From Burkholderia cepacia GG4 (GTDB taxonomy: Bacteria; Pseudomonadota; Gammaproteobacteria; Burkholderiales; Burkholderiaceae), in contig NC_018513.1 in assembly GCF_000292915.1 (NCBI RefSeq), positions 3,399,656 through 3,463,655 of the forward strand: 64,000 nt of DNA. Direction: 5' to 3'. Position 1 is the first letter of the stretch. Every line of letters begins with the position of its first letter. Positions 15,974-27,425 of the stretch are shown in pieces. The notes under the pieces are model-generated. The model was given only the letters and a program-made list of their open reading frames with translations, was not told where the DNA came from and did not search any database. A program made the position numbers and the translations under genes.

Positions 15974-18361
15974 ATGCAATCCACGTCTCCTACGTCCCCG
16001 CCTCCCGCCCCGGAGCCGAAAAAGCGGCCCTGGTGGCAGAAAGTCCTGCTCGGCCTCGTCGCGATGTGCGTGGCTCTCGTCGTGGCCGGCGGCCTCGTGC
16101 TCGGCTACGCGCTCGTCGTCGCATGGCCGAACATGCCGTCGCTCGACGCGCTGACCGACTATCGTCCGAAGGTACCGCTGCGCATCTACACGTCGGATCA
16201 CGTGCTGATCGGCGAATTCGGCGAAGAACGCCGCGACATCGTCCATTTCAAGGACGTCCCGGACTCGCTCAAGAAGGCAATCCTCGCGATCGAGGATGCC
16301 CGCTTCTACGATCACGGCGGCGTCGACCTCACCGGGATCGCCCGCGCCGGTTTCGTCGCGCTGACGAACGGCCATGCGTCGCAGGGCGCGAGCACGATCA
16401 CGATGCAGGTCGCGCGCAACTTCTTCCTGTCGAGCGAAAAGACCTACACGCGCAAGATCTACGAGATGCTGCTCGCGTACCGGATCGAGCGTGCGCTGAC
16501 GAAGGATCAGATTCTCGAGGTCTACATGAATCAGATCTATCTCGGCCAGCGCGCATACGGCTTCGCGAGCGCCGCGCGGGTCTATTTCGGCAAGGACCTG
16601 AAGGACATCACGCTCGCCGAGGCAGCGATGCTCGCCGGGCTGCCGAAGGCGCCGTCCGCATATAACCCGGTCGTCAATCCGAAGCGCGCGAAGGTGCGCC
16701 AGGAATACATCCTGGAGCGGATGCTGGAGCTGAACTTCATCACCCGCGAGCAGTACGACCAGGCCGTCGCGCAGCCGCTCGCCGTCAAGGGCGCAGGTCG
16801 CGAGTTCAGCGTGCACGCCGAGTACGTCGCGGAAATGGTCCGGCAGATGATGTATGCGCAGTACCGCGAGGAAACCTACACGCGCGGCTTCAACGTCGTC
16901 ACGACGATCGATTCGGCCGACCAGCAGGTTGCGTACACCGCGCTGCGCAAGGGCATCATGGATTACGAGCGCCGCCATGGCTATCGCGGGCCGGAAGGCT
17001 TCATCGAGCTGCCGGCCGGCGCCGACGACCGCGAGCAGGCAATCGACGACGCGCTGCTCGAGCATCCCGACAACGGCGAGCTGATCGCGGCGGTCGTCAC
17101 CACGGCAACGCCGCGCCAGATCACGGTCGCCTTCATCGACGGCAGCAGCGCGACGATCGACGGCGACAACCTGCGCTTCGCGTCCAGCGCGCTGTCGGCC
17201 AGCGCGCAGCCGAACCGCCGCATCCGTCCGGGCGCGATCGTCCGTGTCGTGAAGAACGACGCCGGCAAGTGGTCGATCACGCAGTTGCCGCAGGTCGAGG
17301 GCGCGTTCATCTCGATCGTCCCGCAGGACGGCGCGATCCGCGCGCTCGTCGGCGGCTTCGACTACAACAAGAACAAGTTCAACCACGTCACGCAGGCGTG
17401 GCGGCAACCAGGTTCGTCGTTCAAGCCGTTCATCTACTCGGCGTCGCTCGACAAGGGCCTCGGGCCGGCCACGGTGATCAACGACGGCCCGCTGTACTTC
17501 AGCGCCGCGGAAACCGGCGGCCAGCCGTGGGAGCCGAAGAACTATGGCGGCGGCTTCGAAGGTCCGATGTCGATGCGCACCGCGCTGCAGCGCTCGCGCA
17601 ACCTCGTGTCGATCCGGATCCTGAACCACATCGGCACGAAGTACGCGCAGCAGTACATCACGCGCTTCGGCTTCGACGCCGACCGCCATCCGGCCTACCT
17701 GCCGATGGCACTCGGCGCGGGCCAGGTCACGCCGCTGCAGATGGCCGGCGCGTACTCGGTATTTGCGAACGGCGGCTTCCGCGTGAATCCGTACCTGATC
17801 GCGGAAGTGACCGATCCGAACGGTGCGGTCGTCGTACGCGCGCAGCCGCTCATCGCCGAGCAGAACGCGCCGCGCGCGATCGACGCGCGCAATGCTTACG
17901 TGATGAACAGCCTGCTGCAGAGCGTCGCGCAGCGTGGCACGGGCGCGCGCACCAACGTGCTGAAGCGCACCGACCTCGCGGGCAAGACGGGCACGACGAA
18001 CGACTCGCACGACGCGTGGTTCGCCGGCTACCAGCACTCGCTCGCCGCGATCGCGTGGATCGGCTACGACAACCCGCGCAGCCTCGGTGATCGCGAAACG
18101 GGCGGCGGCCTGTCGCTGCCGGTCTGGGTCGAATACATGGGCGCGGCACTGAAGGGCGTGCCGGAGTTCAAGCCGACGATGCCGGACGACGTCCAGTCGC
18201 TCGGCAGCGAGCTGTACTTCACCGAGTTCACGCCGGGGCACGGCTTCGTGTCGACGGTCGGCGTGCCACAGGCGCCGGCGGTGCAGAGCGCCGACGAACC
18301 GGTGCCGCACGTCGACGAGCAGGAGAAGCAGGACATCATGAACCTGTTCCGCGGCCACTGA
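15974..18361 (+). CDS. mrcA: Penicillin-binding protein 1A, bifunctional
   Basis: A 795-residue class A PBP that polymerises and cross-links peptidoglycan. A short Pro-rich cytoplasmic tail is followed by one membrane helix around residues 25-50. The GT51 domain has the catalytic EDARFYDHGG (around residue 103), GASTITMQVARN and RKIYEMLLAYRIE. The transpeptidase domain has the SXXK box GSSFKPF (around residue 480), the SXN box SRN and the KTG box GKTGTTNDSHDAWF. An intervening OB-like region carries RIRPGAIVRV. The start MQSTSPTSPPP fits the promoter and the family; upstream in-frame codons would add over 100 low-complexity residues. Confidence 0.96.
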   Translation: MQSTSPTSPPPAPEPKKRPWWQKVLLGLVAMCVALVVAGGLVLGYALVVAWPNMPSLDALTDYRPKVPLRIYTSDHVLIGEFGEERRDIVHFKDVPDSLKKAILAIEDARFYDHGGVDLTGIARAGFVALTNGHASQGASTITMQVARNFFLSSEKTYTRKIYEMLLAYRIERALTKDQILEVYMNQIYLGQRAYGFASAARVYFGKDLKDITLAEAAMLAGLPKAPSAYNPVVNPKRAKVRQEYILERMLELNFITREQYDQAVAQPLAVKGAGREFSVHAEYVAEMVRQMMYAQYREETYTRGFNVVTTIDSADQQVAYTALRKGIMDYERRHGYRGPEGFIELPAGADDREQAIDDALLEHPDNGELIAAVVTTATPRQITVAFIDGSSATIDGDNLRFASSALSASAQPNRRIRPGAIVRVVKNDAGKWSITQLPQVEGAFISIVPQDGAIRALVGGFDYNKNKFNHVTQAWRQPGSSFKPFIYSASLDKGLGPATVINDGPLYFSAAETGGQPWEPKNYGGGFEGPMSMRTALQRSRNLVSIRILNHIGTKYAQQYITRFGFDADRHPAYLPMALGAGQVTPLQMAGAYSVFANGGFRVNPYLIAEVTDPNGAVVVRAQPLIAEQNAPRAIDARNAYVMNSLLQSVAQRGTGARTNVLKRTDLAGKTGTTNDSHDAWFAGYQHSLAAIAWIGYDNPRSLGDRETGGGLSLPVWVEYMGAALKGVPEFKPTMPDDVQSLGSELYFTEFTPGHGFVSTVGVPQAPAVQSADEPVPHVDEQEKQDIMNLFRGH

Positions 18362-19889: not shown

Positions 19890-20885
19890 TCAGAAGTTCT
19901 TCTTCAGGTCCATGCCCTGATACATCGACGCGACGAGGTCGCCGTAGCCGTTGAACATCAGCGTCTTGCGCTTCGGCGTGAAGAAGCCGTCCTCGCCGAT
20001 CCGGCGCTCGGTCGCCTGGCTCCAGCGCGGGTGATCGACGTTCGGATTCACGTTCGAATAAAAGCCGTATTCGTTCGACGCATACGTGTTCCAGCTCGTC
20101 TTCGGCTGCTTGTCGACGAAGCGGATCTTCACGAGCGACTTCGCGCTCTTGAAGCCGTACTTCCACGGCACGACGATCCGCGCCGGCGCGCCGTTCTGGT
20201 TCGGCAGCACCTGGCCGTAGACGCCCATCGTCAACAGCGCCAGCGGATTCATCGCCTCGTCCATCCGCAGCCCTTCCGAGTACGGCCAGTCGAGCACCGG
20301 CGTCGACAGGCCCGGCATCTGCGACGGGTCGGCCAGCGTGACGAACTGCACGTATTTCGCGTTGCCGGTCGGCTGCACACGCTTGATCAGCTCGGACAGC
20401 GGCACGCCGATCCACGGGATCACCATCGACCATCCCTCGACACAGCGCAGCCGGTACACGCGCTCCTCGAGCGGCGCGAGCTTCAGCAGCTCGTCGAGAT
20501 CGAACACCTTCGGGTGCAGCACCTCGCCCTCGACGCTCACGCGCCACGGGCGCGGCCTCAGCGTGCTCGCGTTCTGCGCCGGGTCGCCCTTGTCAGTGCC
20601 GAATTCATAGAAGTTGTTGTAGGACGTGATGTCCTTGAACGGCGTCACCTTGTCGGCCGCGACGAACGTCGGATTGGTCTTCGCCGCGAGCTTCGCCGCC
20701 CGCGCGTCGGGCGACGCATATGCGGCGAACGCCGCCCCGCTGCCACCGAGCAACCCGCCTGCCGCCGCCAGACCAGCCGCCTGCAACACGCGCCGCCGGT
20801 TCTCGAACACCGCGCGGGGCGTAATCTCGCTCTGCGCAATGTCGCCGCCGGTCAGTACGGTGCGCAAAGGGTGTTTGATCCACAT
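19890..20885 (-). CDS. msrP: MsrP, periplasmic molybdopterin methionine sulfoxide reductase
   Basis: A 331-residue precursor. GGGAGGAGCAGCACG precedes the ATG. A Tat signal is visible ([11 protein letters not shown] followed by a hydrophobic stretch ending AAFA), as expected for a cofactor-loaded protein. The molybdenum-ligand Cys lies in [15 protein letters not shown], and further family motifs are [11 protein letters not shown] and [16 protein letters not shown]. MsrP repairs oxidised methionines in envelope proteins. It is co-directional with msrQ at eight bases and precedes it. A larger in-frame extension to 21536 is an artefact. Confidence 0.95.
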
Positions 20886-20981
20886 CGTGCTGCTCCTCCC
20901 GCGTGCGCGGCGCGCACGCATCATGAGCGTTCGACCCGGCCCATCATGCGCCGTTCGACGCCCGGACCGCCCACCCGTTAC

Positions 20982-25447: not shown

Positions 25448-26107
25448 ATGGCCTTTTTGCTCCATCAAGCCCGCTTCTACACGACCGTCAACCATCTGCG
25501 CGACCTGCCGCCGACGGTGCAACCGGAAATCGCATTCGCGGGCCGCTCGAATGCCGGCAAATCGACGGCGATCAACGTGCTGTGCAACCAGAAGCGGCTG
25601 GCCTTCGCGTCGAAGACGCCCGGCCGCACGCAGCACATCAACTACTTCTCCGTCGGCCCGGCCGCCGAGCCCGTCGCGAACCTCGTCGACCTGCCCGGCT
25701 ATGGCTATGCCGAAGTACCGGGGGCCGCGAAGGCCCACTGGGAGATGCTGCTGTCGTCCTACCTCGCGACGCGTTCGCAGCTGTGCGGCCTGATCCTGAT
25801 GATGGATTCGCGCCGCCCGCTGACCGACCTCGATCGCCGGATGATCGAGTGGTTCGCGCCGACCGGCAAGCCGATCCACACGCTGCTGACGAAGTGCGAC
25901 AAATTGACGCGGCAGGAGAGCATCAACGCGCTGCGGAACACGCAAAAGGGGCTCGACGCATATCGCGACCAGGGCGTGAAGGGCAAGCTGACCGTCCAGC
26001 TGTTCTCCGCGCTGAAGCGCACGGGGCTCGACGAGGCGCATGAACTGATCGAGAGCTGGCTGCGGCCGTCCGTCGCCGACGAAAAAAGCGAGCCTGTAGC
26101 ACAATGA
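25448..26107 (+). CDS. engB: Ribosome biogenesis GTP-binding protein YihA/YsxC
   Basis: A 219-residue essential GTPase for 50S subunit maturation. Motifs are G1 [12 protein letters not shown] (residue 33 on), G2 region [13 protein letters not shown]3 [12 protein letters not shown]4 LTKCDKLTR and G5 FSALKRTG. Length is normal. It is divergent from the cytochrome c4 gene. A -10-like TACAAT at 25360-25365, inside the palindrome ATTGTACAAT, lies 82 bases before the start. Confidence 0.96.
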
Positions 26108-26178
26108 TCGGGCAACGCGCGGCCGGGTTCGGCTGCGCGCACCTGACGGCGCCTGTAGATTCGATTCGGCCGGCCCAT

Positions 26179-26283
26179 AAAAAAACCCGCCGTTGAACGG
26201 CGGGTCAAACAGCCTAATCGAATAACGACAGGCACCCGCTCAGGGAGGAGAAGCGGGGAGCAGCACGCAACGCGTGCCGCTCG
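26179..26283 (-). ncRNA. Candidate structured sRNA with CUCCUCCC anti-SD loop
   Basis: The engB-hemB gap has no protein-coding content. Read on the minus strand it folds into a chain of hairpins: an 11-bp stem GAGCGGCACGC/GCGTGCTGCTC with a GTT loop (26282-26258), CCCGCT/AGCGGG with loop TCTCCTCCCTG (26257-26235), GCCT/AGGC (26233-26212), and a terminator CCCGCCG/CGGCGGG followed by TTTTTTT (26205-26179). A -10-like TATGAT at 26295-26290 predicts a start at about 26283, just before the first hairpin, giving an RNA of about 105 nt. The -35 is weak. A loop carrying CUCCUCCC can pair with Shine-Dalgarno sequences, a feature of known anti-SD sRNA families. No minus-strand gene otherwise explains the terminator. 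Confidence 0.65.
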
Positions 26284-26289
26284 ATCGCT

Positions 26290-26295
26290 ATCATA
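26290..26295 (-). promoter_or_regulatory. -10-like box for the candidate sRNA
   Basis: TATGAT on the minus strand, seven bases before the first hairpin of the candidate sRNA. At 17-base spacing the -35 region reads GGTCAT, a poor match. Confidence 0.35.
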
Positions 26296-26332
26296 TACCA
26301 ACGGTCTCGAAAATGACCGAAGGGTTCCGTAA

Positions 26333-27364
<1,032 letters not shown>

Positions 27365-27387
27365 GCAGCGCGCCGGCAGGCGTAAGG

Positions 27388-27425
27388 AAAAACGGCGGAA
27401 CACTTCGGTGTCCCGCCGTTTTTTT
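27388..27425. terminator. Bidirectional terminator between hemB and dsbD
   Basis: An ACGGCGG/CCGCCGT stem continued by ACAC/GTGT across an A-C mismatch, closed by a TTCG tetraloop, has As upstream and TTTTTTT downstream. It serves both convergent genes. Confidence 0.85.

Follow-up and report, generated by a model that had tools for sequence, protein, structure and literature searches.

Which RNA, if any, is made from the minus strand of the gap between engB and hemB in Burkholderia cepacia GG4, what might it do and where does it come from? The gap (26108–26365) lies in a stretch of 64,000 nucleotides of contig NC_018513.1, referred to here as the window. An earlier sequence-only reading of the window had described a candidate small RNA (sRNA) with its own -10 element and terminator and with a loop complementary to the Shine-Dalgarno (SD) sequence, of a kind known from several Hfq-linked sRNA families. 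The observation is confirmed in nearly every detail, and the interpretation is supported. The RNA itself had been catalogued before; what our analysis probably adds is that it belongs to a broader sRNA lineage linked to engB, whose ancestral promoter was perhaps of the sigma-E type. With a probability of roughly 0.7, the locus is best explained as the Burkholderia copy of RF02837, a trans-acting, probably Hfq-associated sRNA that would block ribosome-binding sites (RBSs) and appears to represent the betaproteobacterial branch of an sRNA of the polA/engB locus. Within this explanation, our own results comprise the family match, the conservation, the structure, the locus and the statistics of the promoter motifs; the transcript, its length and its co-purification with Hfq are taken from published papers, and we infer the targets, the repression, the descent and the promoter switch.

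The RNA and its parts

The features of the locus are collected in Table 1. The minus-strand TATGAT, the three hairpins and the seven-U terminator described by the sequence-only reading are all seen in the sequence, the fold and the terminator scan of the window, which includes the minus-strand site. Folding of the 105-nt RNA (26283–26179) gives four stems with -58.5 kcal/mol, and the first of them has the 11 bp and the position at the predicted 5′ end that had been proposed. The 5′ end in the window is placed from the transcript length and the position of the -10 element. In hairpin 2, the loop UCCUCCCU (26242–26249) is unpaired with a probability of 1.0, although the first C of the SD complement CUCCUCCC is mostly paired in the fold. 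The window RNA thus carries the unpaired, conserved SD complement that characterizes anti-SD sRNAs, together with a U-rich 3′ end after an intrinsic terminator, as in Hfq-associated trans-acting sRNAs. It overlaps neither neighbor, again as had been noted, since 26107 is the last position of engB and 26366 the first of hemB. The sole long minus-strand open reading frame over the sRNA (180 codons, 25759–26301) runs antisense through both engB and the sRNA.

Table 1. Features of the engB–hemB region (positions in the window).
Feature	Position	Strand	Basis
anti-hemB/ncS04-type sRNA, about 105 nt	26179..26283	-	RF02837 match, J2315 ncS04 length, fold
Hairpin 1 (5′ hairpin), 11 bp	26258..26282	-	fold; outside Rfam model
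Hairpin 2, displays anti-SD loop	26235..26257	-	fold; covariation alignment
CUCCUCCC, anti-SD sequence	26243..26250	-	sequence, fold
Hairpin 3	26212..26233	-	fold
Intrinsic terminator: 10-bp stem (26184–26206) and seven U (26179–26185)	26179..26206	-	sequence, terminator scan, fold
-10 element TATGAT within TTGGTATATGATAGCG	26290..26295	-	sequence; 6 nt before 26283
GTCATT (GAACTT in relatives), proposed remnant of a sigma-E-like -35	26312..26317	-	inferred, upstream-region comparison
engB (ysxC/yihA), convergent neighbor, most widely common landmark	25448..26107	+	ORF; tblastn neighbor tables, including against E. coli YihA
hemB, divergent upstream neighbor	26366..27364	+	ORF; neighbor tables

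The names engB and hemB come from the sequence-only reading and from sequence similarity. At the end of hemB (27351–27425, plus strand), a sub-threshold match to Xoo2 (23.8 bits, cut-off 45) is probably just the hemB terminator.

Identity with anti-hemB

The Rfam search that had been suggested identifies the RNA. RF02837 "anti-hemB" matches 26177–26259 over the full model (1–81) with 85.6 bits (cut-off 49.5, E = 3.7e-20), and apart from it just one tRNA exceeds an Rfam cut-off in the 64-kb window. The source genome contains three RF02837 matches, of which the one in the window alone exceeds the cut-off. The window RNA also lies where the family is located, between engB and hemB and convergent to engB. 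In sequence, structure, place and 105-nt length it agrees with RF02837 (also Burkholderia RNA 7 or ncS04), and no difference was found, the Rfam model itself being without the 5′ hairpin. The window RNA is therefore anti-hemB. Membership of the RF02278 toxic sRNA family was rejected (16.3 bits, cut-off 50), and at E up to 10 the window region is matched neither by the models of ErsA (RF01719) and sX13 (RF02232), both with a cut-off of 50 bits, nor by that of Spot 42.

In B. cenocepacia J2315, the transcript ncS04, labeled anti-hemB, is reported with a length of 105 nt and a 3′ end from RACE and dRNA-seq; it lies between BCAL0264 and BCAL0265 with the gene orientation of the window, appears in a Northern-blot legend and is cited as co-purifying with Hfq, and its expression did not change significantly across the seven tabulated qPCR conditions (PMC5688073; PMC4603805). 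The Hfq link of the sequence-only reading has a counterpart in the cited co-purification, and an independently transcribed sRNA is supported by these published data and by the conservation seen in our loci. From raw sequence alone, the blind reading had thus arrived at an RNA already in the catalogue, and its estimate of about 105 nt equals the published length. Anti-hemB is also listed in B. pseudomallei (PMC3521395). A review gives hemB as a predicted target of the Hfq-copurified RNA Bc7 (PMC6321483). Bc7 is likely to be ncS04. The name anti-hemB describes the location of the RNA.

Conservation of the loop and the stems

No part of the RNA is more conserved than the anti-SD loop. Its sequence CCUCCCUGA is nearly invariant: 57/60 Burkholderiaceae loci and 40/40 loci of the order have it. 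CCTCCCTGA gives the same counts (57/60 and 40/40) and is found in 12/20 and 11/20 loci of the two upper bands of class Gammaproteobacteria and in 1/20 of the weakest. These samples are not random: the 60 family loci comprise the 30 best RF02837 matches (own genome included) and 30 picked for diversity, with L002 and L003 removed as weak secondary matches; the 40 order loci were hand-picked from 150 listed places, roughly one per family; and the gamma bands, 20 loci each, cover 40–59 bits (some genomes skipped), 39–44 bits (next in order) and 27–32 bits (few skipped).

The support for the stems comes from alignment A1, which holds 33 of the 60 Burkholderiaceae sequences after the omission of 12 divergent members, 9 duplicates and 6 more (L015, L017, L051, L052, L055 and L057), and whose pair counts therefore favor close relatives. 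In these chosen sequences, 93.1% of the cells are paired in the four-stem structure, and the covariation score is 0.129, compared to 0.072 ± 0.006 in shuffles (0/500 as high) and 0.015–0.044 when the structure is slid. Stems that vary without compensatory change, which the sequence-only reading had named as a refutation, were thus not seen in this set. In hairpin 1, 7/11 pairs show compensatory changes and 83.5% of the cells are paired, with two middle pairs broken in many rows (18/33 and 15/33). Hairpin 3 is paired in 97.0% of the cells and shows compensatory change in 2/8 pairs. In hairpin 2, 6/7 pairs never vary, and A1 therefore offers no covariation evidence for it; in the combined alignment A2, in which hairpin 3 is misaligned, one of its pairs changes from C–G to U–A in 2/32 sequences. 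The run CTCCCCGCTTCTCCTCCCTG is invariant in all 33 sequences, and the divergent Burkholderiaceae members outside this alignment differ directly before the loop.

Distribution and neighboring genes

RF02837 exceeds its cut-off in 241/299 genomes of Burkholderiaceae (277/299 at E up to 0.001) and in 190/300 of Burkholderiales (232/300 at E up to 0.001). For class Gammaproteobacteria the numbers fall to 14/274 above the cut-off, two of the 14 being Burkholderiales, and 124/274 at E up to 0.001. At the level of the phylum, 23/150 genomes match at E up to 0.001, and the three above the cut-off (G000, G346 and G313) all belong to one order, Burkholderiales. Searches over more than 40 genomes used stricter filters, by which weak matches are lost. 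Because the control genomes of E. coli, Caulobacter and Deinobacterium also give RF02837 matches below the cut-off, sub-threshold matches alone prove nothing.

A scan of named genomes for the exact pattern returned at least 120 stretches. Among the 80 matching stretches listed are members of Comamonadaceae, Rhodocyclaceae, Oxalobacteraceae, Gallionellaceae, Methylovorus, Nitrosospira, Vogesella, Pandoraea and Cupriavidus, along with some gammaproteobacterial metagenome-assembled genomes (MAGs) and one Sericytochromatia MAG. Among the matches listed, 64/81 have engB, hemB or polA within 1.5 kb (convergent engB in 45, hemB in 56), and in 80/81 four consecutive T occur within 90 nt, which is not a strict test. 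The Sericytochromatia match (L274), the one without a T run, probably arose by chance. In Nitrosospira briensis (L314), the space between engB and hemB holds two copies of the anti-SD hairpin (742–762 and 865–885), separated by about 120 nt.

The neighbors form a consistent pattern. Read in the orientation of the sRNA, engB lies downstream and convergent in 57/60 Burkholderiaceae loci, and hemB lies upstream and divergent in 57/60. At the order loci, engB is convergent in 29/40 (one overlapping), upstream on the same strand in 6 and not found in 5; hemB is upstream in 30/40. The gammaproteobacterial loci were found by a whole-genome RF02837 search blind to neighbors, and engB and/or polA flank 15/20 of those with 40–59 bits, 19/20 of those with 39–44 bits and 8/20 of those with 27–32 bits. 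Of these 42 loci, 18 combine a same-strand polA upstream with a convergent engB downstream (overlapping in one case); another 4 have both genes around a flipped sRNA, 12 have engB only and 8 have polA only. The order of the 18 is that of E. coli, where polA is followed by spf (Spot 42) and yihA. Altogether polA adjoins the sRNA in 30/60 gamma loci; the window RNA shares with this sRNA locus the convergent engB and has hemB upstream in place of polA.

Some loci deviate. The sRNA is inverted relative to engB at L158, L164, L174 and L182 and at L080, L086, L092, L094, L103 and L108, and several engB-inverted loci still have the sigma-E-like motif described below upstream. One Burkholderiales genome has six RF02837 matches (L093, G526:C10:705000-723800; e.g., 2445–2528, 15994–16076 and 16178–16257); two of them are about 100 nt apart, and neither engB nor hemB was found in that stretch. 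Arrays of two to four related sRNAs are seen in Gammaproteobacteria (L133, G759:C33, 2149–2887; L134, G850:C3; L120; L121), and those of L120 and L121 lie about 1.5 kb from tmRNA, with no engB or polA found.

The sX13 paper posed the question of whether the polA locus of other bacteria encodes sRNAs too, and it pointed out the common polA locus of sX13, Spot 42 and alpha-r7 (PMC3771888). Our results suggest a positive answer for many lineages of Gammaproteobacteria; they also suggest that a related RNA persists in many betaproteobacteria, where its neighbors are often hemB and engB. The likely relatives of anti-hemB would thus be spread over both groups, with engB as a frequent neighbor, at the Spot 42 site and near the places of ErsA and sX13.

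Promoter types

Many of the relatives are preceded by the motif GGAACTT-N13-18-TCNNA, defined after looking at the sequences, which we take to be of the sigma-E/AlgU type. With one mismatch allowed in GGAACTT, it is present upstream of 25/39 order loci, compared to 0.2% of control windows (L091 was dropped from this count because its upstream sequence is missing), and it precedes 22/40 upper-band class loci, compared to 0.4% of control windows. It is thus found at 47/79 relatives outside Burkholderiaceae, and 6/20 loci of the weakest gamma band have it as well. In the pattern-drawn set of named genomes, it occurs in 29/81 among the matches listed, and in genera presumably of Comamonadaceae, in 0/25 loci among the matches listed. 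Within Burkholderiaceae, 8/60 loci fit it, and in the window it is degenerate, with GTCATT and TGATA at the corresponding positions. A different motif, TGGTATATSAT (one mismatch allowed), is present upstream of 49/60 Burkholderiaceae loci and 0/39 testable loci of other Burkholderiales. Both motifs occur together at nine Paraburkholderia and Pandoraea loci among the matches listed. A change of promoter type within Burkholderiaceae seems the simple reading of these upstream sequences, and it would fit the flat expression of ncS04. Because many members outside Burkholderiaceae have a sigma-E/AlgU-like promoter, envelope-stress control may be ancestral, and the Burkholderia promoter would have changed from it to the TGGTATATGAT type.

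Proposed mechanism and candidate targets

In the proposed mechanism, a promoter of its own would drive the sRNA toward engB, and transcription would end at the intrinsic terminator with a U tail. The stable 5′ hairpin may protect the end of the RNA, the U tail would bind Hfq and hairpin 2 would keep UCCUCCCU open. The loop could then pair in trans with GGGAGG-type RBSs of several mRNAs and block initiation. Hfq-assisted pairing of a C-rich loop with RBSs is the likeliest mechanism, judged by conservation and by analogy with sX13 and S17: RBS pairing by C-rich loops has a precedent in sX13 (PMC3771888), and repression by Bordetella S17 via pairing near the RBS has been reported in a preprint.

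Candidate target sites were counted in the genome. AGGGAGGAG-N3-10-ATG is not enriched (2 matches, 2 control matches), and GGGAGGA-N4-9-ATG is in modest excess (25 vs. 14 control matches). At 12 of these 25 sites, the ATG opens a frame of at least 150 codons. A Pfam scan of nine proteins behind GGGAGGA sites assigned a family above the cut-off to eight of them, including an ExbD/TolR protein, a molybdopterin oxidoreductase encoded in the window, a PF10118 hydrolase and malate synthase. These proteins are leads, not targets. The PF10118 metal-dependent hydrolase has a 13-nt complement to the loop directly before its start, kept in 20 of the 30 closest genus copies (own genome included), but the candidate is weak because the surrounding leader is also conserved. 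In the window, GGGAGGAGCAGCACGATG (20883–20900, minus strand) stands before the molybdopterin oxidoreductase (PF00174) as a possible target site.

Alternative explanations

That the gap holds a mere terminator with chance hairpins and no functional RNA is hardly conceivable. GC-rich hairpins do account for much of the signal, and chance alone would produce terminator-like sites here fairly often (2 nested found, 1.6 expected); the published ncS04 transcript contradicts this account all the same, as do the compensatory changes of hairpin 1 and the invariant unpaired loop, and the U run serves the minus strand only. A regulator acting in cis on hemB, whether by overlapping the hemB leader or by colliding with hemB transcription, would agree with the divergent hemB upstream of 57/60 Burkholderiaceae and 30/40 order loci and with the review in which hemB is a predicted target of Bc7 (PMC6321483). 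The fetched flanks of the gamma loci contain hemB in 1/60, a locus of the weakest band at neither engB nor polA, with hemB 1080 nt away; the invariant part of the RNA is the loop, complementary to SD sequences in general; and no GGAGG stands directly before the presumed hemB ATG. Since gammaproteobacterial members lack hemB nearby, hemB-specific cis-antisense action was rejected as the conserved function, and as an account of the window RNA it is improbable.

A further alternative concerns descent: the locus may attract sRNAs with C-rich loops, so that anti-hemB, ErsA, sX13 and Spot 42 would be of separate origin. Direct Rfam cross-matches between the classical members are indeed absent, and C-rich loops recur in unrelated sRNAs, as illustrated by the RF02278 RNA of the same genome, which reaches 32 bits with RF02837. 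For Spot 42 the objection is fully valid. For the others, convergence is opposed by a near-identical hairpin, CCCGCUU-CCUCCCUGAGCGGG, at both engB–hemB and polA–engB loci, by the common promoter motif and by model matches in both directions between beta and gamma members, and we regard it as rather unlikely. We favor instead, by a narrow measure over even odds, a reading in which anti-hemB, ErsA and sX13 all descend from a single ancient sRNA gene that was near engB before the beta/gamma split and has kept this place since. The ancestor would have had a sigma-E-type promoter and C-rich loops, with the CCUCCCUGA loop most conserved in the beta branch; hemB would have replaced polA upstream in betaproteobacteria; and in Burkholderia a promoter of the TGGTATATGAT type would have turned an envelope-stress sRNA into a constitutive one. 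Our confidence in this reading was lowered slightly because the named set is poorer in the motif than the chosen loci and because model R1, described below, misses ErsA. If the reading is true, a "Burkholderia" RNA would acquire relatives that have been studied and, with them, a likely mechanism and envelope stress as a possible inducer of the ancestral form.

Comparison with ErsA, sX13, Spot 42 and other C-rich sRNAs

The loci of true ErsA, sX13 and Spot 42 are not matched by RF02837, and the kinship of anti-hemB with ErsA and sX13 runs through intermediates, not through direct Rfam cross-matches. The array L133 (G759) is matched by anti-hemB with up to 41.8 bits, by sX13 with up to 48.3 and by ErsA with up to 37.1, partly on the same copies and always below the cut-offs of the families. 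The ErsA model matches 8 genomes, in 5 of which (G759, G653, G732, G744 and G644) the place coincides with that of RF02837; in G678 the RF02837 match is elsewhere, and G750, which holds true ErsA, has none. The sX13 model matches 10 genomes, coinciding with RF02837 in G759 and G671 and lying elsewhere in G604, G610, G653, G661 and G711. Within the source genome, the CU-rich RF02278 "toxic small RNA" (L003, G000:C1:239559-239616) scores 76.5 bits.

Two further models were applied. With the beta-trained model R1, the true sX13 loci score only weakly (17.4 and 12.0 bits), as does Spot 42 (11.9 bits), all at the right place; R1 misses the ErsA locus and has no match in 22 control loci. R2 was trained on 34 gammaproteobacterial loci, themselves found with RF02837, and is thus not independent of it; hairpin 2 is missing as pairs from its automatic structure. 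Six gamma loci away from engB/polA were omitted from alignment A3. In the 64-kb window, the sole R2 match at E up to 10 is 26177–26258 (43.3 bits, E = 1.1e-7). R2 scores the ErsA locus with 28.1 bits, two sX13 loci with 27.3 and 29.3 and Spot 42 with 14.2. The 22 control loci (66 kb), whose selection was not aimed at sRNA content, give no R2 match; in harder controls, the RF02278 sRNA and two tmRNA regions reach 15.7–16.6 bits. Given the roughly 16 bits attained by another C-rich sRNA and by tmRNA regions, the 14.2 bits of Spot 42 are no evidence, and Spot 42 was rejected as a sequence relative, its scores being at background with R1 and R2. Kinship of anti-hemB with ErsA and sX13 is likely, whereas with Spot 42 only the position is common. 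No paper linking anti-hemB to ErsA, sX13 or Spot 42 was found in the open-access literature; PMC5688073 mentions Spot 42 only for nutrient stress.

The RF02278 betaproteobacterial toxic sRNA (ncS27 group) and Bordetella S17 have CU-rich anti-RBS segments like the window RNA, but their family and loci are different. Spot 42 (RF00021) has the same order of upstream gene, sRNA and convergent engB/yihA, but its upstream gene is polA rather than hemB and its sequence–structure match does not exceed background. At the retrieved ErsA locus and two sX13 loci, polA lies upstream and engB was not seen. sX13 (RF02232, Xanthomonadaceae) is downstream of polA and has three C-rich loops, with G-rich sites near start codons; the two sX13 loci examined have no sigma-E-like motif, and Hfq-independent action has been reported (PMC3771888). 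ErsA (RF01719, Pseudomonas), described as driven by sigma-22 (AlgU) (PMC5819304), lacks anything corresponding to the anti-hemB loop hairpin at the 5′ end of its model, but with polA upstream (L137) and C-rich loops it is like the anti-hemB relatives, and the sigma-E-like motif at its locus (here TGAACTT-N17-TCATA) is common to many of those outside Burkholderiaceae.
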